From NCBI GenBank assembly GCA_001873285.1, contig MNYV01000098.1, positions 1-23,433 on the forward strand: a stretch of DNA of 23,433 nucleotides. Reading direction: 5' to 3'. The notes beneath the pieces were generated by a model that worked only from the letters and a program-made list of their open reading frames with translations, was not told the origin of the DNA and searched no databases. Positions 4,607-23,234 of the stretch are shown here, piece by piece. Made by a program: the position numbers and the translations under genes. How positions within the stretch are numbered: position 1 is the stretch's first letter; every line of letters begins with the position of its first letter. Origin of the DNA: Nitrospirae bacterium CG2_30_53_67. GTDB taxonomy: Bacteria > CG2-30-53-67.

Positions 4607-4909
4607 ATGAGCATAAAAATTGATATTCCGAAAGCGGAAATCCAAGAGTTTTGCCGTCGCAACCAAATCCGCCGTTTGGCCGTGTTCGGGTCGGTTCTGC
4701 GCGATGATTTCACGCCCGAAAGCGATGTGGACGTGCTGGTGGAATTCGAGCCGGGCGCGCGAGTGGGGTTGATTGCGTTGGCGGGTATGGAAATCGAATT
4801 GAGTCAACTGCTGGGCCACAAGGCGGAAATGCACACGGCCAAGGGCCTCAACCCGCATTTCCGTGATGAGGTGTTGGGCCTGGCGGAGGTGCAGTATGAG
4901 CAAGGGTGA
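4607..4909 (+). CDS. mntA: MNT-domain nucleotidyltransferase antitoxin (MntA-like)
   Basis: The product is 100 residues, a minimal nucleotidyltransferase of the type found in HEPN/MNT (type VII) toxin-antitoxin pairs. In characterised members MntA inactivates its HepT partner by adding AMP to a tyrosine. The sequence shows the canonical GSx10DxD motif: Gly28-Ser29, then Asp40 and Asp42 in SDVDVLVEF, the metal- and nucleotide-binding core. The frame is open further upstream, but the start at 4607 is preceded by GGAGG at the right distance, and the upstream residues are translated repeat DNA. The gene overlaps the HEPN gene by 14 bases, as expected for a coupled pair. It sits inside a conserved housekeeping cluster, so it was probably acquired. 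Confidence 0.9.
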   Translation: MSIKIDIPKAEIQEFCRRNQIRRLAVFGSVLRDDFTPESDVDVLVEFEPGARVGLIALAGMEIELSQLLGHKAEMHTAKGLNPHFRDEVLGLAEVQYEQG

Positions 4910-5240
4910 CGACTCGCTCAGTCTGAAAGATATGCTCAATCACGCCCGAGAAGCGGTCGAGCTGTTGGGCAATTCGAGCCGGGAAGAATTGGGACGCAAT
5001 CGTGTAATGCAGCTGGCGCTGACGCGTCTGGTGGAGATTGTGGGCGAGGCAGCCAATCGCGTCTCTGAGGAGACACGATTGGCGAATCCGAAAATTCCTT
5101 GGCCGCAGATCATCGGAATGCGTAATCGGCTTGTTCACGGGTATGATGTAATAGACTTTGATTTGCTGTGGGACACGGTGACGGACGACCTGCCTCCACT
5201 GATCGCTGCGTTGCAAGAGATCGTGAGGGAAAAGGAATAA
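4896..5240 (+). CDS. hepT: HEPN-domain toxin of the DUF86/HepT family
   Basis: The product is 114 residues and mostly helical, matching the HepT-like (DUF86) HEPN ribonucleases that act as toxins and are neutralised by the adjacent MntA nucleotidyltransferase. The family's active-site motif Rx4HxY is complete: Arg76, His81 and Tyr83 in RNRLVHGYD. Tyr83 is the position modified in studied systems. The start at 4896 lies inside the end of mntA and has GGCGGAGG in front of it; an in-frame ATG at 4863 would add only a shadow translation of mntA. Both genes look intact, so the module is probably functional. The RNA target cannot be inferred from the sequence. Confidence 0.9.
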   Translation: MSKGDDSLSLKDMLNHAREAVELLGNSSREELGRNRVMQLALTRLVEIVGEAANRVSEETRLANPKIPWPQIIGMRNRLVHGYDVIDFDLLWDTVTDDLPPLIAALQEIVREKE

Positions 5241-13322: not shown

Positions 13323-13563
13323 TGAAAGCCGAGATTCCCTGCGGATCCTTGCGCGAGTTGATCGGAGGCAGATCGCCTATCTGAATGCCGTCTTGGAGTC
13401 CTATGAGGGACTGGGTCTCCTGCGGACGCTGAACCCGGCTGAAGGGATCGTTTGTTTCTATGTCTCAAACCCCCTCTCAGAAGAAACCCATGCGCTTCTT
13501 CAGTCCTTACAGAAAGAGATCGGTCTTGAATTTTGTGTATCATCATTCCATGGATGCCTTTAA
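13309..13563 (+). CDS. Small DUF4911-type protein of unknown function
   Basis: The product is 84 residues. The pattern RILARVDRRQIAYLNAVLES, then YEGLGLLRTLNPAEGIVCFY and a C-terminal ALLQSLQKEIGLEF, resembles the small DUF4911 family as I recall it, whose function is unknown. It has no signal peptide or cysteine motif and is likely a cytoplasmic alpha/beta protein. The start at 13309 overlaps the last 14 bases of accA and is the first ATG giving the family pattern; upstream codons in this frame only shadow accA. Its end overlaps the predicted start of the cytochrome gene by 14 bases. Confidence 0.7.
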
Positions 13564-14347
13564 AGCCGCTCTTCTGGTCACGCTTTTTTTCTTCATGTTC
13601 CCCGTCCGGGTTTCGGGAGAGAACAGTTGTGTGAAGTGCCATGAAGGTATAGAAAATCCGGCCATCAGGGAATTTCATAAGGAATGGAAGGCGTCTGCAC
13701 ATTCCCGTTCAGGGATCACCTGTGAGCACTGTCATGGCGGGGATCCGGGGAAGAGCGGGAAGGAGGCCGCTCACCAAGGTGTTCACAATGCGTTGGATCG
13801 TGAAAGCTCTGTCTATTATACGAAGATTCCAGCCCTTTGCGGAGGGTGCCACATCGCCGCCTTCAGTGAATTCAAAACAAGCAGCCATTACAGCAACCTT
13901 ATCACCAAGGGGACCGGCCCCAATTGCGTGACCTGCCATGATGCCATGGCCACGAAGATCATCAAACCGGGTGAGATTGAGATCTTTTGCGCGCTGTGCC
14001 ATAATGCGAAGATGAGTCTGCTTCCGGGTGTCACAAAAGACGCCAAGACCTGCCTGGAACGGATGGACCTGATCGGGCAGAAGATTCAGGAGGTAGAAAG
14101 GGCCCTGGCGCAGGCGGAAAAAAGCGGAACCGATACCACCCAGGCCAGGGGATTTCTCTCCCTGGCCGGGCGTGAATATGCCGCCTCTAAACAGGACTGG
14201 CACAGCTTTCAGTTGAACCGTGTCGCATCCCGCCTCAAGGGGGTGGAACGGCTTGTGCAAAAGGCAGGGGATTCATTCATCCGCCCCAAAGAAGATCGGA
14301 CTGACTCCTATGAAAATTCTGCAGTTCCTGCAGCGCCTATCCATTAA
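13550..14347 (+). CDS. Periplasmic pentahaem c-type cytochrome
   Basis: The 265-residue product has an N-terminal signal sequence (hydrophobic stretch about 7-18, likely cleavage near VSG at 21-23). Five CxxCH haem-attachment motifs follow: Cys27-His31, Cys58-His62, Cys97-His101, Cys126-His130 and Cys147-His151. Past residue 165 the protein is haem-free and predicted helical (a charged stretch around 172-245), a possible interaction arm. I chose the ATG at 13550 because it places the signal peptide at the N terminus, but no ribosome-binding site precedes it. In-frame starts at 13493 and 13460 are alternatives. The gene overlaps the histidine kinase gene by 38 bases. That coupling suggests the cytochrome works with the kinase, either as redox input or as an electron carrier, which is inference. 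Confidence 0.85.
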   Translation: MDAFKAALLVTLFFFMFPVRVSGENSCVKCHEGIENPAIREFHKEWKASAHSRSGITCEHCHGGDPGKSGKEAAHQGVHNALDRESSVYYTKIPALCGGCHIAAFSEFKTSSHYSNLITKGTGPNCVTCHDAMATKIIKPGEIEIFCALCHNAKMSLLPGVTKDAKTCLERMDLIGQKIQEVERALAQAEKSGTDTTQARGFLSLAGREYAASKQDWHSFQLNRVASRLKGVERLVQKAGDSFIRPKEDRTDSYENSAVPAAPIH

Positions 14348-16424
14348 TGCCAAGGTCGGCCTGGCCTACCTGGGGTTTGTGATCATCACCAGCGGCGCAG
14401 GGAGCCTGCTGGTTGTCTACAATGAAAAGGCGGTCATCCGGCAGGGGCACATCGACCTGGTCCGGAACCTTGCAGAAAACACCCAGCCGGTCCTTCTGGT
14501 CGAACACAGGATGATGCTGAACCGGCTGGTCCAGACCGTCGGGAAGATGCCTGATGTGCGGTCCTGCGCCATCATGAACAAAAACAACCTGGTGGTGGCC
14601 CATACGGATATGGCCATGATCGGGCGGATACTTCTGATCGGCGAACCTGCCATAGGATCCTTTAAAAAGAACGAATATTATTTTGAGGTCTTTGGTAAGC
14701 AGTTCGAGAATATCTATGTTCCGGTTTACAGTTCCGACCGATATCTCGGGAATGTTTTTGTAGGGTTCGATGCCCCCAGCTTTGTGCGCCTGTTCCGACA
14801 GCCCGGTCGGGCTGCCATTGAAAGCATCCTGATTGTCATTCTTTCTACGGCCTTGCTGGGGCTGATCGGGGCGTTTATTATCGTCAGGCTCATATCCTAT
14901 CCCATCCGCGTCCTGACCAAGAAGGTTTACAACGTTCATCAGGGCAAGATCCCCGAAAGGCGCTTGCCCAAGAGCTACGTCTACTGCTGGGAACAATTAG
15001 ACTGTAAGCAAGTCCAATGCCCCTCTTACGGGAACAAGGCGGAGAAATGCTGGGCCGTTGCCGGGACCTTCTGCAGGGGAAAGGTGCAGGGGGTCTTCGC
15101 CCAGAAGATAGGGGACTGCAGAAAGTGCATTATTTTTAAAAAGAATGCCGGAGATGAAGTAGCCCAGCTTAACGATGCATTCGACATCATGGTTCGGGAC
15201 TTGGTCTATAATACCGAGAAGGCGAATGAGGCCAGGGAAGATATAGAAAAGTATGCCAGGCAGATTGAAAAGGCCAACCAGGAGAACGCCGACCTCAAGG
15301 CCTATACCGAGAGAATTCTCAACAGCCTATCATCCGCCGTGATCTCCCTGGATAAAGACATGGTCATCAGGAAATACAACCGGACCGCTCAATCCCTTCT
15401 GGGGTTGGACCTCGAAAGGCTTGTGGGGCGGGGTATCTCGGAGATCACCCAATTTTGCAGCCGGTGCAATGACTTTTTCGGTTTGATACTGGCGGCATTG
15501 GCAACCTATAAAGAACAAGGAAAACCGATCATCGGGCAAGAGGTTTCCGTGACCAGGGCCGACGGGGAACCCATGACCATCAGCCTGAGCGTGCTTCCTC
15601 TTCATGGAGATCCGGCGCTTGAAAAGACCCCGATGATCGTGACCTTTGAAGACATTACGGAAAAGGAAAAGATGCGGGAGGAGCTGACGCTCTCGAGGCA
15701 GCTTGCCGAGCTGGGGGAGGTGGCGGCCAAGGTGGCGCATGACATCCGGAACCCCCTGAATGTCATTGCCGGCGGGGTTCATTACCTCACGTCCAAGTAT
15801 TTAAACGATCCGGAGATCCAGAATATGTCCAACCTGATCAGCGGCCAGGTGGAGCGGTTGAACAGTGTGACATCGGCCCTGCTGAAGGTCTCCAAACCCA
15901 TGATGCCGAATTTCAATGTGTGTGATCTGAACCGTTTGATAGACGAGTCCAGCTCTTTCCTTCTGGAGGAGATCAACCTGGCCGGGCTCATTCTAAAAAA
16001 GGATTATGCAAAGGATATCCCTCCTTTGTTCCTGGACGCCAATCAGATCCAACGGGTCGTGATCAATCTGATTGAAAACGCCATGGAGTCCATGCCCGGC
16101 GGGGGGACCATTACCCTCAGGACACGGTACCTGCAGAATGAAGGGAAATCGGACGAACAGGTGGAGCTGACCGTCCTGGATACAGGGCCCGGGATTTCCG
16201 ATGAGATCATGGATTCGGCATTCAAACCTTTTTACACCACCAAGGTCCATGGAACCGGACTCGGTCTTGCCATTGTCAGGCAGATCATCACGCAGCACCA
16301 TGGCCAGGCCAGAATCAGGAGAAGAGAGCCCGGGCCGGGCGCCGAGGTCTTGATCCTTCTTCCCGTCAAGACTGTACAGAAGGATAGGTCCCATGTCTAT
16401 TCATCAAAGCGTCCTTGTGATTGA
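14310..16424 (+). CDS. Membrane sensor histidine kinase with two-CW cysteine cluster and PAS domain
   Basis: The 704-residue product has a first membrane helix (about 17-37), a periplasmic sensor region (about 40-165, Cache-like in pattern) and a second helix (about 170-193) leading into a HAMP-like linker. A cytoplasmic cysteine cluster follows at Cys226, Cys232, Cys237, Cys247, Cys255, Cys270 and Cys273, with the CWE and CW signatures of two-CW domains. Then come a coiled coil (about 300-335) and a PAS domain (about 336-450) that carries another CxxC (Cys383, Cys386). The kinase core has the phosphoacceptor His477 in KVAHDIRNPLN, N-box Asn590, DTGPGIS (624-630) and the HGTGLGLA ATP lid (647-654). 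The start at 14310 overlaps the cytochrome gene. The cysteine cluster suggests metal or redox sensing, which is inference. It is surely the partner of the overlapping regulator. Confidence 0.92.
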   Translation: MKILQFLQRLSINAKVGLAYLGFVIITSGAGSLLVVYNEKAVIRQGHIDLVRNLAENTQPVLLVEHRMMLNRLVQTVGKMPDVRSCAIMNKNNLVVAHTDMAMIGRILLIGEPAIGSFKKNEYYFEVFGKQFENIYVPVYSSDRYLGNVFVGFDAPSFVRLFRQPGRAAIESILIVILSTALLGLIGAFIIVRLISYPIRVLTKKVYNVHQGKIPERRLPKSYVYCWEQLDCKQVQCPSYGNKAEKCWAVAGTFCRGKVQGVFAQKIGDCRKCIIFKKNAGDEVAQLNDAFDIMVRDLVYNTEKANEAREDIEKYARQIEKANQENADLKAYTERILNSLSSAVISLDKDMVIRKYNRTAQSLLGLDLERLVGRGISEITQFCSRCNDFFGLILAALATYKEQGKPIIGQEVSVTRADGEPMTISLSVLPLHGDPALEKTPMIVTFEDITEKEKMREELTLSRQLAELGEVAAKVAHDIRNPLNVIAGGVHYLTSKYLNDPEIQNMSNLISGQVERLNSVTSALLKVSKPMMPNFNVCDLNRLIDESSSFLLEEINLAGLILKKDYAKDIPPLFLDANQIQRVVINLIENAMESMPGGGTITLRTRYLQNEGKSDEQVELTVLDTGPGISDEIMDSAFKPFYTTKVHGTGLGLAIVRQIITQHHGQARIRRREPGPGAEVLILLPVKTVQKDRSHVYSSKRPCD

Positions 16425-17721
16425 CGATGAACCGGCCATCCTGGAGGTTATGCGGTTAAACCTCGCCAAGGAAGGTTATCAGGTCCTGACCGCGGCGTCA
16501 GGGGAGGAGGGTCTCGCCATGCTCTCCGAGAAGCTCGTGGATGTGGTGATCGTGGATTATAAAATGCCCGGGATGAACGGGATCGACTTTCTGGAAAAGG
16601 CAAAAGTTAGGCGCCAGGATATCCCGGTCATTCTGGCCACGGCCTATGGGACCATCGACATGGCGGTCAAGGCCATGAAGCTCGGGGCATACAACTACCT
16701 AACCAAGCCGTTGAATTATGAGGAGATGATTCTGCTCCTCAAGCAGGCCGTAGAGAAGAAGCGCCTGGTGGAGAATGTGAAGGAACTGCGGAAGGAAGTC
16801 CGTGAGCAGTTCCGTTTTGAAAAGATCATCACCAACAACAAAAAAATGCTGGAACTGCTCGACATGGCGGCGCATGTCGCTGAAACCGATGCGACCCTGC
16901 TCATCCGAGGGGAGACCGGAACAGGCAAGGAACTGATTGCCGGCGCCGTTCACTACATGAGCCCTCGAGGGGACAAGCCGTTTTTAAAGGTGAACTGTAC
17001 GGCGCTTCCGGTGACCCTTTTAGAAACCGAGCTGTTCGGGCATGTGAAAGGCGCCTTCACGGGGGCATCGAGGGACCGGAAAGGACGATTCGAGGCCGCA
17101 GACGGGGGCACGCTCTTTCTCGACGAGATCGGAGACATCTCACAGAATATGCAGCTCAAGCTCCTCCGGGTTCTGCAGGAGATGGAGTTTGAAAAGCTCG
17201 GAAGCAACGAAACCCTGAAGGTGGATGTCAGGGTCATCGTCTCCACGAACCGGAACCTTGAGGAAGCCATCCGGAAGGGCTCGTTCCGGGAGGATCTCTT
17301 TTTCCGCCTCAATGTAGTCCCGATCTTTATCCCTCCTCTCCGGGAGAGAAAAGACGATATTTACCTGCTGGCCAACCATTTTCTTGAGAGGTCCAACAAA
17401 AAACATAAGAAAGAGATCCATGTCATCCCATCTGAAGTGATGCTGACCCTGCTGAACTATGACTGGCCCGGGAACGTTCGGGAGCTCGAGAACGTCATAG
17501 AGCGGGCGGTCATTCTTTCCAAAGGAGATGCTCTCGATGTGGCGCACTTTAAGGTTCTTGCCGGCGCTGTGCAGGCGAGGAAGAAGAGCGAAAGGGAGAT
17601 CCTGATGGAACTGGAAGAAAAATATGCAGGCTTTCCCAACACCCTCGAAATGATCGCCAAAGATCTTGGGATCAATGCTTCGACCCTGTATCGCAAAAGA
17701 AAAAAGTATGGCCTGGCCTGA
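16393..17721 (+). CDS. NtrC-family sigma-54-dependent response regulator
   Basis: The 442-residue product has three domains. The receiver (1-120) has Asp11 and Asp12, the phosphoacceptor Asp55 in VIVDYKMPG and Lys105. The AAA+ domain has Walker A GETGTGKE (173-180), the sigma-54 contact loop GAFTGA (220-225) and Walker B GGTLFLDEIGD (238-248). The DNA-binding domain is a Fis-type helix-turn-helix at the C terminus (TLEMIAKDLGINASTLYRKR). The GAFTGA loop is perfect, so it should activate sigma-54 RNA polymerase directly. The gene overlaps the kinase gene by 32 bases. The next intergenic region holds a near-consensus sigma-54 promoter and two identical palindromes, which makes this regulator the obvious candidate activator there. 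Confidence 0.96.
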   Translation: MSIHQSVLVIDDEPAILEVMRLNLAKEGYQVLTAASGEEGLAMLSEKLVDVVIVDYKMPGMNGIDFLEKAKVRRQDIPVILATAYGTIDMAVKAMKLGAYNYLTKPLNYEEMILLLKQAVEKKRLVENVKELRKEVREQFRFEKIITNNKKMLELLDMAAHVAETDATLLIRGETGTGKELIAGAVHYMSPRGDKPFLKVNCTALPVTLLETELFGHVKGAFTGASRDRKGRFEAADGGTLFLDEIGDISQNMQLKLLRVLQEMEFEKLGSNETLKVDVRVIVSTNRNLEEAIRKGSFREDLFFRLNVVPIFIPPLRERKDDIYLLANHFLERSNKKHKKEIHVIPSEVMLTLLNYDWPGNVRELENVIERAVILSKGDALDVAHFKVLAGAVQARKKSEREILMELEEKYAGFPNTLEMIAKDLGINASTLYRKRKKYGLA

Positions 17722-17759
17722 TTCACGCCCTGCCCGGAGATTGCATTTTGCACGATTCA

Positions 17760-17775
17760 TAGGAAAAGTTTTTCC
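17760..17775. promoter_or_regulatory. Candidate upstream activator site 1
   Basis: TAGGAAAAGTTTTTCC is a GGAAAA-N2-TTTTCC palindrome. The same 16 bases recur at 17929, 169 bp downstream, which is close to 16 helical turns. Its centre is about 336 bp upstream of the predicted sigma-54 transcription start. NtrC-type activators bind dyads of this kind at such distances. That the neighbouring regulator binds here is inference. Confidence 0.6.
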
Positions 17776-17928
17776 CACACATGATCCTCTCAGAATTGGA
17801 TTCCGATAAGATTCTCGCCTTTTATAGGATAATCTCCGTTTGAAAATTGTATCCGAAACATCAATGGGTTAAGCAGCAGGACCTGGATGTTTGCAAAAAT
17901 GGATGCCGTCATTGTAATCTTTTGGGCT

Positions 17929-17946
17929 TAGGAAAAGTTTTTCCTA
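17929..17946. promoter_or_regulatory. Candidate upstream activator site 2
   Basis: TAGGAAAAGTTTTTCCTA extends the same palindrome to 18 bases, so its outer TA/TA bases are symmetric too. The centre lies about 168 bp upstream of the predicted transcription start, in the usual range for sigma-54 enhancers. The central two bases are the only asymmetry. The rest of 17776-18078 is AT-rich and holds no gene that I can see. Confidence 0.65.
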
Positions 17947-18078
17947 ATTATTACATGAATATATTCTTGATCCATTGATATTTTTAAACCCCTTCATGCC
18001 CCTGCGCTAATAAAATTATAGAGCATTTTCAAGACATTGAAAAGATATGCAGACCCCAGGTCCGCCCGCCTCCATTTT

Positions 18079-18094
18079 TGGCACAGGTTTTGCT
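18079..18094 (+). promoter_or_regulatory. Sigma-54 (-24/-12) promoter
   Basis: TGGCACAGGTTTTGCT matches the sigma-54 consensus TGGCAC-N5-TTGCW at every fixed position, with the correct spacing between the GG and GC dinucleotides. Transcription would start near 18105, giving a leader of about 45 bases before the gene at 18150. The promoter lies directly downstream of a sigma-54 activator gene and of two candidate activator sites. Confidence 0.85.
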
Positions 18095-18100
18095 CTATGA

Positions 18101-18117
18101 GTTTATAGATTATAAAC
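18101..18117. promoter_or_regulatory. Perfect inverted repeat at the predicted transcription start
   Basis: GTTTATA (18101-18107) and TATAAAC (18111-18117) are perfect inverted repeats around GAT. The dyad begins seven bases after the -12 element and covers the predicted +1 position. It could be a repressor operator or a small hairpin at the 5' end of the transcript. Neither role can be decided from the sequence. Confidence 0.5.
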
Positions 18118-18149
18118 ATTATAGATCCGTTTGATGCCCGGGCCGATGA

Positions 18150-19985
18150 ATGAAACGTTGTGTCATGGTTTTAGTGATGTTCTCATTTCTACTGAACGCC
18201 GGGAATCTTCATGCAGTACAGTATCTGTTGAGAATCACGGATGCCCCCTATCCGGCAGATACTAATTTCGGCGCCGATACCCTTCTTGCGGATGACGGTT
18301 TTTATCCGAGTTCGGGCCTTTCCCTGGGTTTCAACTTCCCCTTTTATTGCAGCACGTATAACAAAATCTATATTGACGTGAACGGATTTATTACCCTGGG
18401 GTCCAAGTCCTCCGGACAATACGACGACACCGATAACCAGACCTTCCCTCTCTACGATAACGCCGGTTCCAACCCGGAATTTTACAGCATCCCGATGATC
18501 GCGCCCTTCTGGTCTGATGTGATCACCGAGCACAGCACCGACCCGGACGTGATCGCCTATGAAAATGCCATAGGCAGGCCCGGCAGCCAGAGACATGGAC
18601 AAATCCGGTATCGTCTCGACTCCGTCTCTTCTCCGAAAAGGGTGATCGTGACCTGGAATGATGTCTTTCATTATCGGGATGCCGCATGGGGGGACGACAA
18701 CACCACCGGGAATAATTTTCAGCTCGTCCTGTATGCAGACGGCCGTATCCAGTTCAATTACGGGGCCATGGGGTGGCGGGGGTTCAATGCGCCCTATCAG
18801 AGGATGGCGACCATCGGCATTTATTCTGCCGATCACGCGGCCGGAAGCCCCTGCGAGGGACAGGCCGCGCCGTACGATATCTTCTATCCCGAGGACAATC
18901 AGGTATCAGGAAAAGAGCTTCTCTATCTCATGGATACGGATGAAGATGATATCCCTGACGATGGAGATGCATCGGGTGCGGCCGGAGACCATCTCTGCAG
19001 GCGCCCGGTGGTGGACAACTGCGACGACAATTGCCGGGATGTCATGAATTTCGATCAGGATGATACGGACGGGGACGGGGTGGGAGACCTCTGCGACAGC
19101 GACGATGACAACGACGGTGTCCCGGATGTATCCGACAACTGCCCTCTCGCGGCAAATCCGAGCCAGACCCATTCGGATGCCGACACCCATGGGGACGCCT
19201 GCGACAACTGTGTGACGGTTGCCAATGAAGATCAACTGGACACGGACGGAGACGGACAGGGAGATGCCTGTGATTCCGATGATGATAACGACGGTGTTCC
19301 GGACGGTTCGGATAACTGCCCGGTTACAACCAATCCTTCCCAGGCCAATTATGATCAGGATAGCATGGGGGACATCTGTGACCCGGATGCGGACAATGAC
19401 GGTCTCAGCAATATCAGTGAGAACCAGTGGCCCTACACCAACTGGCTGGACCCGGATACGGACCACGACCACTATACGGACTGGGAAGAGTTTAATCATG
19501 ACGGGAACCCGGCATATTCTTTCTTTCTCGACACCGATCCGAACAATCCGGATTGCGACGGCGACGGGCTTCTGGACGGGGATGAGGCGCATATCTTCGG
19601 GACCAACCCCAAAAGAGCGGATACGGATGCAAACGGGGTCCCTGATGGACAGGAAGATTTCGATCATGACGGGCTCGTTAACGTAGATGAGATCGCCGTG
19701 GGGACCAACCCCTGGAATCCGGATTCGGATAACGACGGCCTGATGGATGGGGCGGATCCATGGCCTTTGGATATCAATTACCGGGACGGAGATCTGGACG
19801 CCTCCGGGTCCGTGGATGCAGCGGATGCCTTGATTGCCATGCGTATTGCATCCGGTTTGATAACGGCCACCACCGTGCAACTCCAGCACGGCGACGTGAC
19901 TCCCATGGGGGCGCCGGACGGCATGATCGATATCTCGGATGCCTTGATGGTGATGAGAAAAGCCATGGGACTGGTTGCCTTTTAG
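18150..19985 (+). CDS. Secreted NIDO / thrombospondin type 3 / dockerin-like calcium-binding protein
   Basis: The 611-residue product has a signal peptide (about 1-22, cleavage likely after LHA). An N-terminal beta-rich region (about 30-245) contains IDVNGFITLGS, IAPFWSDV and NNFQLVLYADGRIQFNYG, the pattern of the nidogen-type NIDO domain. From about residue 260 to 540 there is a long run of aspartate-rich thrombospondin type 3-like repeats (DTDGDGVGDLCDSDDDNDGV and variants, with paired cysteines), which bind calcium. The last 70 residues (about 541-611) hold two dockerin-like calcium loops, DGDLDASGSVDAADALIAMR and DVTPMGAPDGMIDISDALMVM. No membrane anchor or sorting signal is apparent. It is probably an extracellular adhesion or scaffold protein. 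It is the first gene after the sigma-54 promoter, though its ribosome-binding site is weak. Confidence 0.85.
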   Translation: MKRCVMVLVMFSFLLNAGNLHAVQYLLRITDAPYPADTNFGADTLLADDGFYPSSGLSLGFNFPFYCSTYNKIYIDVNGFITLGSKSSGQYDDTDNQTFPLYDNAGSNPEFYSIPMIAPFWSDVITEHSTDPDVIAYENAIGRPGSQRHGQIRYRLDSVSSPKRVIVTWNDVFHYRDAAWGDDNTTGNNFQLVLYADGRIQFNYGAMGWRGFNAPYQRMATIGIYSADHAAGSPCEGQAAPYDIFYPEDNQVSGKELLYLMDTDEDDIPDDGDASGAAGDHLCRRPVVDNCDDNCRDVMNFDQDDTDGDGVGDLCDSDDDNDGVPDVSDNCPLAANPSQTHSDADTHGDACDNCVTVANEDQLDTDGDGQGDACDSDDDNDGVPDGSDNCPVTTNPSQANYDQDSMGDICDPDADNDGLSNISENQWPYTNWLDPDTDHDHYTDWEEFNHDGNPAYSFFLDTDPNNPDCDGDGLLDGDEAHIFGTNPKRADTDANGVPDGQEDFDHDGLVNVDEIAVGTNPWNPDSDNDGLMDGADPWPLDINYRDGDLDASGSVDAADALIAMRIASGLITATTVQLQHGDVTPMGAPDGMIDISDALMVMRKAMGLVAF

Positions 19986-20126: not shown

Positions 20127-23100
20127 ATGAAAAAGTTATTGAGAATGTCGGCCTTATTTTTGCTTATGGCGGGCATGGCCGTGATCTATCCTGCCACCGG
20201 CTTCAGCAAGCCGGGTGGAGGCGGCGGAGGCCACGGCGGCGGCGGGAAAACCGCCACCCCGCCCAAGAACGCCTTCAACATCATGATGAACTACGAGCTG
20301 GGGATGCACTGCACGGGATTTGAGTTCTCCTACTGCTGTATCCTCCCTCCGTACAATTCGATCCTGGCCCAGGTGGTCAAGACCGAGAAGGCGGGGGGCA
20401 AGCCCAAGCTCATGGAATCCGACCCCAACGTAGGGATCGACGGTCTGGGCCGGCCGACCGTGGTGCGGGATACCGCATTGGACGGGAACGGGAACTTTAA
20501 GAAATACGTTCTTAAATACTGGCACGATGCCCAGCCCAGAAACGACGGCCGAGGGGCGCCGCAGACCAGCACCCTGATCAGCCAGGTGGAGGGGAACTCC
20601 CTCCTGATGTGGAACACCAAATTTGACTCAGCAAAAGTTGATGCCAACGGCGCCCTGACTTACGGGACCTATAACGGCGCAACCGGCGTCATGCAAGGCG
20701 ATGGGGATTACACGGACGCCACGGACAACTATGCCAACGCCTGGATGAACCATCTCTACATCTATGCGGACCTGGAGGGCGGCAACCCGGCGAACTCCAG
20801 CCTGGAAGGGGATAAGATCCGTCTCGGTGTGGCGGGCCACGTGCAGTATCCTCCGAACGTGGGCGCCTCGCTTCAGCCCATGGGTCCAGGCGTCGTGGGC
20901 GCAGGTTTCGGCAACGTGCTGACCTTTTCCAAGGACTCAGGGACCGTGGTCTACACCCAGATGAAGGTTTTGGAAAATCTTCCGGTCATGTTGACCTCGC
21001 CCCGGATCTGGGAGGCGTTGGGCCTTCCTCTGACCCCGTTTGAGGACACCATCAATTTCTTCGGTGATCCCGGGGCCGTGGACGAGGATTCAATCCGGCC
21101 CTATGTGTTCATGCGCGCCGAGCTTCAGGACTATAATACCGGCGCGGCCATACTCGATGACGGGAACCCGGTGCGCGGCTTCGGGACGGCGCCCATTGAT
21201 ATCCCGAACTGCGAGCGCTGCCACGCCACATTCAGCAGTGTGAACAGCGCCAACCCCGTAGGCTCGCCCCAGTATGCCCTGGTCATGGATGAGATCAACT
21301 TCTGGAACTGCTACTACGGGATCAACACTGCGGCCGGGGACTCGGACTGGTATTCGAGACTCAAGGGAGCGGCCATCAGTATTTTGAAGATCCACGACAT
21401 GAAGCGCGGGACCTCATTTACGGCGAATTTCCCGGCAACCACCATCAACTGCGCCACGGGCGAGCTCTCCGGGGACACGAGCGACATCGTACAGAAGACC
21501 CGGCTCGGTCATGAGGCCGTGGTCTGCCAGCGCTGCCATGCGGACAACGTGATTGCCGCGGTCAAGTCGGCCAATATAGGGCAGGAGATGGTGGATAACG
21601 GTTCAGATATAGATCCGTCCCAACTGGGCGCGTTGATTCGGCCCCTGACTGAGGTCATCCACCGCGAACACAGGAACAGGGAGTTTTCAGACTCCCTGGG
21701 GAGGAACGGAGGCTGTCAGGGCTGCCATCCCTCTCACCGGTCCGACGGATCCTTGGACAATTATCCCATCACACAGGACGGGATGAACTTCTTTGCAGGG
21801 AGCGATAACCGGAACGCCGCAGGCGGATGCTATGTGGGCCGCGACGTGCATTCCAATCCCGGAAGAAATACCGACGGCGCCGAGACCCCGAGTCATCTGA
21901 ATCCCATCGGCCAGTGGCTGGTGACCAATGTGGCCAAGGACACGGGGACCGACAAGGGGATCTGGTGCACCAACTGCCACAGCCAGTTGGGTCAGGAACT
22001 CTGGAAAAAGGATAATATGAGCGACCCGATCCACGGGGTCGGCGTTTACACGGCCCGGAACGAGTCGTTCCCCGCAGGTGTGGCGGCTGCCCTTGGTGTC
22101 TCGGAGGCCCAGACCATTGCCTGGCTCGATCCCAAGACCAATGCGGATACGGCGGCGATCTGGAACCGGGATCCGGGACTCTGCAACTACGTTGCGGGAT
22201 ACTTCGGCGTCATTCCGGTCAATCCCGATCATGACGGGAATGTAGCCACCGTCGAGGTTCAGGTGAACAGCGCGTCAGCATGCACCACAGGCGGCGGCAC
22301 GGGCCTGATTGACTGCGGCGCTGACTACCCGGGCGCTCCCGCTTTCTATATCTGCGGTTCCACGGATGCGGACGGGGATTTCAGCGTGAAGGTCTTGGAC
22401 TTCTGCACCACGTCCGACTGCGTGGCGGCGGCCCAGGCAACCCTGCCTTCCGGCTCCGTGGCCGTGCCGGTGCCTTTCTCGGCTGCCTCGGACGGACGGG
22501 ACCACTGGCTGGCCGGGGGCGAGCCCCACTGTGCGGACTGCCATGCGGCGCCATACGTGGAGAACAGCGGGAACAACAACCCCTTTCCGCCGTTCAACTA
22601 CCCGAAAAAGCCGGCCCTGTTCCGCTACACCCGAGGGCATCAGGACATCACCTGCCAGGGGTGTCATGAGTCGATTCACGGGCTCTATCCGGTCACCCCG
22701 AACATCGACACCACGTCCTATGCCCAGGCGGCCGGCATGAACACGGACGGCTCCCACGGACCGCTCAAGTGCGGGGCCTGTCATAAGGCGAACAGTAGTG
22801 GCGTAGATAGTGCCGTGGCTAATCTGACATTCCAGGGAACAGCGATTGCCAACAACTTCGATGCGGCGGTCTCCTGGATGCACACCTACACGGAGGAGTC
22901 GGACCCACGTGACAGCACCTGCCTGCGCTGCCATGGAGACAACCGGTCCAAGATTTCTTCCACCAATGGGAAATGGACGACCCATGCCAAATCAGGCCGC
23001 GTCTCCAGAAAGACCATGGACAAGGTGGAGATCCTGCAGCTGGGCCATGTGTCCGGCGACCCTGCCTTTGAGAGTCCGTATACAACCCTGTGCAAGACCT

Positions 23101-23234
23101 GTCACGGAGACCGGGGCAACAGGGTTTCCTGCAGCAGCAAAAAATGGAAAAACCATCTTGTGGAAGGGCGTGCCTCTGCCTCTGTCTGGGAGTATGTCTC
23201 AGGACAGAAGACCGGAGGAACCTGCGGGTACTGA
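20127..23234 (+). CDS. Large secreted nine-haem c-type cytochrome with glycine-rich N terminus
   Basis: The 1035-residue product has a signal peptide (about 1-27) followed by a run of ten glycines broken only by a histidine (30-40). The first 360 residues contain no haem motif but include a conserved-looking segment NYELGMHCTGFEFSYCC (55-71) with three cysteines. Nine CxxCH motifs begin at Cys362, Cys467, Cys530, Cys614, Cys802, Cys843, Cys882, Cys932 and Cys989, so the haems crowd toward the C terminus. I prefer the start at 20127 to the ATG at 20115, because the latter's ATGGAGG contains the ribosome-binding site of the former. The protein is probably periplasmic or outside the cell; no catalytic assignment is possible. 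The gene follows the calcium-binding protein gene by 141 bases and probably shares its sigma-54 promoter. Confidence 0.88.
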   Translation: MKKLLRMSALFLLMAGMAVIYPATGFSKPGGGGGGHGGGGKTATPPKNAFNIMMNYELGMHCTGFEFSYCCILPPYNSILAQVVKTEKAGGKPKLMESDPNVGIDGLGRPTVVRDTALDGNGNFKKYVLKYWHDAQPRNDGRGAPQTSTLISQVEGNSLLMWNTKFDSAKVDANGALTYGTYNGATGVMQGDGDYTDATDNYANAWMNHLYIYADLEGGNPANSSLEGDKIRLGVAGHVQYPPNVGASLQPMGPGVVGAGFGNVLTFSKDSGTVVYTQMKVLENLPVMLTSPRIWEALGLPLTPFEDTINFFGDPGAVDEDSIRPYVFMRAELQDYNTGAAILDDGNPVRGFGTAPIDIPNCERCHATFSSVNSANPVGSPQYALVMDEINFWNCYYGINTAAGDSDWYSRLKGAAISILKIHDMKRGTSFTANFPATTINCATGELSGDTSDIVQKTRLGHEAVVCQRCHADNVIAAVKSANIGQEMVDNGSDIDPSQLGALIRPLTEVIHREHRNREFSDSLGRNGGCQGCHPSHRSDGSLDNYPITQDGMNFFAGSDNRNAAGGCYVGRDVHSNPGRNTDGAETPSHLNPIGQWLVTNVAKDTGTDKGIWCTNCHSQLGQELWKKDNMSDPIHGVGVYTARNESFPAGVAAALGVSEAQTIAWLDPKTNADTAAIWNRDPGLCNYVAGYFGVIPVNPDHDGNVATVEVQVNSASACTTGGGTGLIDCGADYPGAPAFYICGSTDADGDFSVKVLDFCTTSDCVAAAQATLPSGSVAVPVPFSAASDGRDHWLAGGEPHCADCHAAPYVENSGNNNPFPPFNYPKKPALFRYTRGHQDITCQGCHESIHGLYPVTPNIDTTSYAQAAGMNTDGSHGPLKCGACHKANSSGVDSAVANLTFQGTAIANNFDAAVSWMHTYTEESDPRDSTCLRCHGDNRSKISSTNGKWTTHAKSGRVSRKTMDKVEILQLGHVSGDPAFESPYTTLCKTCHGDRGNRVSCSSKKWKNHLVEGRASASVWEYVSGQKTGGTCGY

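Follow-up and report, generated by a model that had tools for sequence, protein, structure and literature searches.

A conserved sigma-54 control region beside a two-component system shares its palindromes with exopolysaccharide operons in an uncultured bacterial family

Which protein reads the palindromes that lie in front of a sigma-54 promoter? The original prediction for the intergenic region at 17722-18149 was that two such palindromes are the specific sites of the response regulator encoded next to them. We now consider whether that pairing holds. The window is the whole stretch of DNA analysed, 23,433 nucleotides, from a member of candidate phylum CG2-30-53-67, which has been treated as a phylum carrying dsr genes (PMC11406059). 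The comparison covers six genomes of one family, G000 (this genome) to G005, together with genomes of f2, another family in the same class. The features that concern us are as follows.

13550-14347, + strand: P0005, secreted multihaem cytochrome with five CxxCH motifs, first gene of a cytochrome, histidine kinase, response regulator operon (order kept in G001, G003 and G005)
14310-16424, + strand: P0004, sensor histidine kinase with a two-CW cysteine-rich domain, PAS, HisKA and HATPase
16393-17721, + strand: P0001, NtrC-family response regulator with GAFTGA, receiver and Sigma54_activat domains
17740-17756, + strand: conserved element ATTGCATTTTGCACGAT with core TGCACGAT, a candidate P0001 site on the basis of conservation
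17760-17775, no strand assigned: palindrome 1, TAGGAAAAGTTTTTCC, an exact match within a 43-bp block identical in G001
17929-17944, no strand assigned: palindrome 2, TAGGAAAAGTTTTTCC, within the 20-bp palindrome TTAGGAAAAGTTTTTCCTAA
18079-18094, + strand: sigma-54 -24/-12 promoter TGGCACAGGTTTTGCT (TGGCAC-N5-TTGCT), zero mismatches
18150-19985, + strand: P0002, secreted NIDO/TSP3 protein with a dockerin-like C-terminus, at this place in G000 only
20127-23234, + strand: P0003, secreted multihaem cytochrome with nine CxxCH motifs, the conserved target 3' of the promoter

The elements on which the prediction was built are all present: two identical TAGGAAAAGTTTTTCC sites 169 bp apart, the TGGCAC-N5-TTGCT promoter, the GAFTGA regulator gene just upstream and, just downstream, a gene for a secreted protein, P0002, with an N-terminus that by eye is hydrophobic and signal-like. 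The palindrome cores start at 17762 and 17931, a separation of about 16 helical turns. The two copies are the sole zero-mismatch matches to GGAAAANNTTTTCC in the window, which holds five matches with up to two mismatches (1.5 expected), and the palindrome at site 2 is longer than that at site 1. The promoter has the right spacing and agrees with TGGCAC-N5-TTGCW throughout; when the intergenic sequence downstream of site 1 is shuffled, a zero-mismatch match to the slightly looser TGGYAY-N5-TTGCW appears 0.05% of the time. A single sigma-54 gene (rpoN) is present in the genome, along with GAFTGA activators: 20 matches to Sigma54_activat exceed the cut-off, 17 being strong matches, and NtrC-type activators number well over a dozen. 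Judged from its sequence and conservation, this is a true sigma-54 control region. AATATATTCTTGAT at 17958-17971, identical in G001 and placed between site 2 and the promoter, resembles an IHF site with one mismatch.

The neighbouring operon encodes a two-component system. The two-CW domain of the kinase P0004 (NF045718, 40.4 bits against a cut-off of 35) occupies residues of about 230-290, between the membrane part and PAS, and makes a redox input plausible; a match to sCache_3_2 is weak and below the cut-off. The P0004 gene adjoins that of the multihaem cytochrome P0005. Orthologues of P0001 occur in all six family genomes, with 70-84% identity in the five relatives. Downstream, either G000 has gained P0002 by insertion or the other genomes have lost it, and we take the cytochrome P0003 to be the conserved target of the promoter; the two genes would be co-transcribed. 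Elsewhere in the window, at 4610-5240, a nucleotidyltransferase-like gene and, after it, a HepT-like gene (by eye an MntA/HepT-type toxin-antitoxin pair) lie between topA and a trmFO-like gene.

How far is the region conserved? G001 has the same gene order without P0002, with promoter and site 1 identical and site 2 degraded. The 43-bp block over TTGCATTTTGCACGAT and site 1 is the longest stretch of the region identical in G001, the promoter block (23 bp) being second. In G005 the promoter is an exact consensus, a one-mismatch palindrome stands at the site 2 position and site 1 is degraded. The G003 promoter is one mismatch off, and a palindrome search of that region gives nothing below 4 mismatches. 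P0001 is retained in G002 and G004, which have no relative of the cytochrome and no sites 3' of the regulator. Among cytochrome homologues elsewhere (f2, G003 and G005, some with incomplete flanks) none has a palindrome together with its own sigma-54 promoter.

Is the palindrome particular to this locus? Exact GGAAAA-N2-TTTTCC occurs 8, 10, 3, 7, 1 and 7 times in G000 to G005, respectively, where the reversed control gives 1, 1, 1, 1, 0 and 2, and is absent from the two f2 genomes. Two exact sites, one in G001 and one in G005, occur singly within reading frames; we treated these as chance matches and left them out. Beyond this locus the motif is organized in arrays. Exact or one-mismatch seeds served to pick them out, and the numbers of units therefore apply to strong arrays; 30 of 30 have at least two units, and 41 gaps are exactly 21 bp, or two helical turns. 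The other exact intergenic seeds examined have a neighbouring unit within 45 bp in 26 of 26 cases (4.3 expected). An outward-facing sigma-54 element (at most one mismatch, within 350 bp) accompanies 22 of 28 arrays, where 0.8 are expected, and this association, read from sequence, establishes the arrays as a class of sigma-54 upstream sites. A search with the half-spacer form TTTTCC-N7-GGAAAA (up to two mismatches) was abandoned as too noisy, with 351 matches against 319 in the control. Our literature search for a GGAAAA/TTTTCC activator site found nothing relevant.

The arrays front two exopolysaccharide (EPS) loci and genes for a GAF-GGDEF diguanylate cyclase, PilZ and STAS proteins, an ECF sigma factor, a secreted LVIVD/cyclophilin lipoprotein and a TSP3 subtilase. 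The first EPS locus combines an NtrC-type regulator, P0006, with an export protein, a chain-length determinant and a glycosyltransferase, two of them over XrtA-family cut-offs; the second has a sugar transferase with Poly_export. Segments resembling P0002 occur in at least four array-fronted genes or operons (contigs C42, C25 and C107 of G001 and C37 of G000), which we count as supporting evidence only, since TSP3 repeats are common.

The window sites share the core of this family motif, with two exact copies, and a weight matrix built without them places them mid-range, palindrome 1 ranking 42 of 72 array units. The arrangement differs. Whereas an array comprises at least two units, most of them 21 bp apart, the window palindromes are separated by 169 bp, with no further unit (up to three mismatches) within 45 bp of either. 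No array consists of a single copy, as the sites here and in G001 do, and these sites may therefore be read by another protein; the pairing with the adjacent regulator stays alive on that account.

The best candidate reader of GGAAAA-N2-TTTTCC is probably P0006, because all six genomes have an array 5' of its gene, which belongs to the XrtA-like EPS cluster. That array has at least four units in G000, G001, G002, G004 and G005 and at least two in G003. A perfect sigma-54 element follows it in G000; in the other five genomes no recognisable -24/-12 element lies downstream, so autoregulation would need another promoter type. An extended -10 sigma-70-like sequence, TATGTTAMRCTA, was seen by eye between array and gene (L017:7543-8072, L235, L237); it is common to G000, G002 and G004, and P0006 may be expressed from it. 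Just upstream of the array is the gene for P0007 (L017:6366-7535), a soluble receiver-histidine kinase kept in G001, G003 and G005, which may be the partner kinase of P0006.

A second element lies directly 5' of site 1. This is TTTGCACGAT, with core TGCACGAT. The core is present in four of four genomes that keep the cytochrome at this place and in neither of the two that have lost it. Since any shared 8-mer arises in 1.6% of shuffles (P about 0.016, moderately significant, with four sequences), this conservation is suggestive and not proof. On this pattern TTTGCACGAT would be a likelier site for P0001 than the palindromes. Enteric NtrC uses paired upstream sites, looping to the sigma-54 polymerase, and its site contains TGCAC; TTTGCACGAT contains TGCAC too, and a resemblance of sites and helices is presumed. 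P0001 itself falls short of the NtrC cut-off (413.9 against 558.6). As the mark of a wider regulon GCANNNTGCACGAT was rejected: G000 and G001 each have a single match, at this locus, and the other matches examined (two in G002 and one of those in G003) are inside reading frames with no sigma-54 element nearby.

Comparison with known systems is informative. In the PEP-CTERM/XrtA regulon of PrsK/PrsR, motif 1 spans 17 nucleotides, terminates in TTTACA and is separated from the promoter by about 63 bp (Haft et al. 2006, PMC1569441). The array regulon appears, by analogy, to work like this one, with an EPS-linked NtrC-type response regulator and an upstream motif (sometimes repeated in the PrsR case) plus a -24/-12 element preceding numerous individual, dispersed genes whose products are secreted. 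It nevertheless lies outside that regulon. Here GGAAAA-N2-TTTTCC is repeated in 21-bp arrays and lacks the TTTACA ending; P0001 and P0006 score 363 and 388 bits, respectively, against a cut-off of 502.6 for TIGR02915 (PrsR), and P0002 ends in the dockerin-like RKAMGLVAF with no PEP-CTERM family match. In Myxococcus xanthus the NtrC-like regulator EpsI/Nla24, encoded in an EPS locus, is required for EPS and tied to c-di-GMP (PMC4877007). P0006 is likewise NtrC-type and within an EPS cluster; a search of that account for 'binding site' revealed no described motif. The sigma-54 regulome of Desulfovibrio vulgaris includes many NtrC-type regulators, each with a mostly palindromic upstream site, several beside their target, among them DVU3142, which regulates an electron-transport (octahaem cytochrome) system (PMC4641369, PMC3333781). 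Most of those regulons comprise one to four operons, unlike the array regulon here. The main text of the two papers, whose motifs are given in figures, contains no GGAAA sequence.

On balance we favour a composite sigma-54 promoter, in which the palindromes belong to a matrix regulon read by P0006 and TTTGCACGAT serves P0004/P0001. The main alternative is that P0001 binds both palindromes and activates the promoter, its specificity happening to resemble the matrix motif. Adjacency speaks for it, as does the kept order of regulator, sites, sigma-54 promoter and cytochrome, and it accommodates the single-copy sites, the 43-bp block around site 1 and the spacing close to 16 helical turns. Presence and absence of the two regulators cannot separate them, as both occur in all six genomes. 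The recognition helices differ, however: NASTLYRKRKKYG in P0001 and SYKALLYKIKEN in P0006, each conserved across the orthologues read. The P0001 orthologue of G003 differs very little in its helix and has a sigma-54 promoter, yet no palindrome accompanies it, and palindrome 2 falls in the diverged part of its surroundings in G001. The same motif stands before many unrelated operons across the six genomes without P0001 as a neighbour, including P0006 in every genome. Specificity of the palindromes for the adjacent regulator is not supported, and a private pairing with it looks unlikely, though it is the strongest of the competing explanations.

Less probable still is recognition of the palindromes throughout the genome by a third regulator of the NtrC type. 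With well over a dozen sigma-54 activators there is no shortage of candidates, and the helix of a regulator on C72, VSYKTLLTKIKDY, resembles that of P0006; the C72 locus, however, carries neither palindrome nor sigma-54 element, whilst P0006 carries its array in all six genomes. We give least credence to the idea that the palindromes here are decaying or non-functional and that TTTGCACGAT and the promoter are all that matter. Degradation of site 2 in G001 and of site 1 in G005, and absence from G003, would fit such decay. Against this are two perfect copies within a 428-bp region and the position of site 1 in the region's longest identical block, with 41 of 43 columns conserved compared to 231 of 351 elsewhere.

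Under the composite reading, the two palindromes would be upstream activating sites of a family-wide extracellular-matrix regulon, bound by P0006 or a related activator, while P0001 of the putative redox two-component system P0004/P0001 would bind TTTGCACGAT. One of these activators, or both, would reach sigma-54 RNA polymerase at 18079-18094 by looping and turn on expression of the secreted TSP3 protein P0002 and the nine-haem cytochrome P0003. That each protein is matched to its proper element, and that the effect is activation and not repression, we infer. We put forward more tentatively, as something that may well not hold, the further idea that a matrix regulator with 21-bp arrays also recruits, through single palindromes, a cytochrome operon answering to its own redox two-component system.

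The locus illustrates that proximity by itself is an unreliable basis for assigning an activator to a site. For the matrix regulon of this uncultured lineage it also yields a candidate motif together with a candidate regulator and a list of targets, and it suggests a link between the regulon and a cytochrome operon of the extracellular type. If this is correct, one NtrC-type regulator would command EPS, c-di-GMP enzymes and secreted adhesin-like proteins in this uncultured family, and the promoter described here would act as an AND or OR gate through which biofilm matrix and extracellular electron transfer are coupled.
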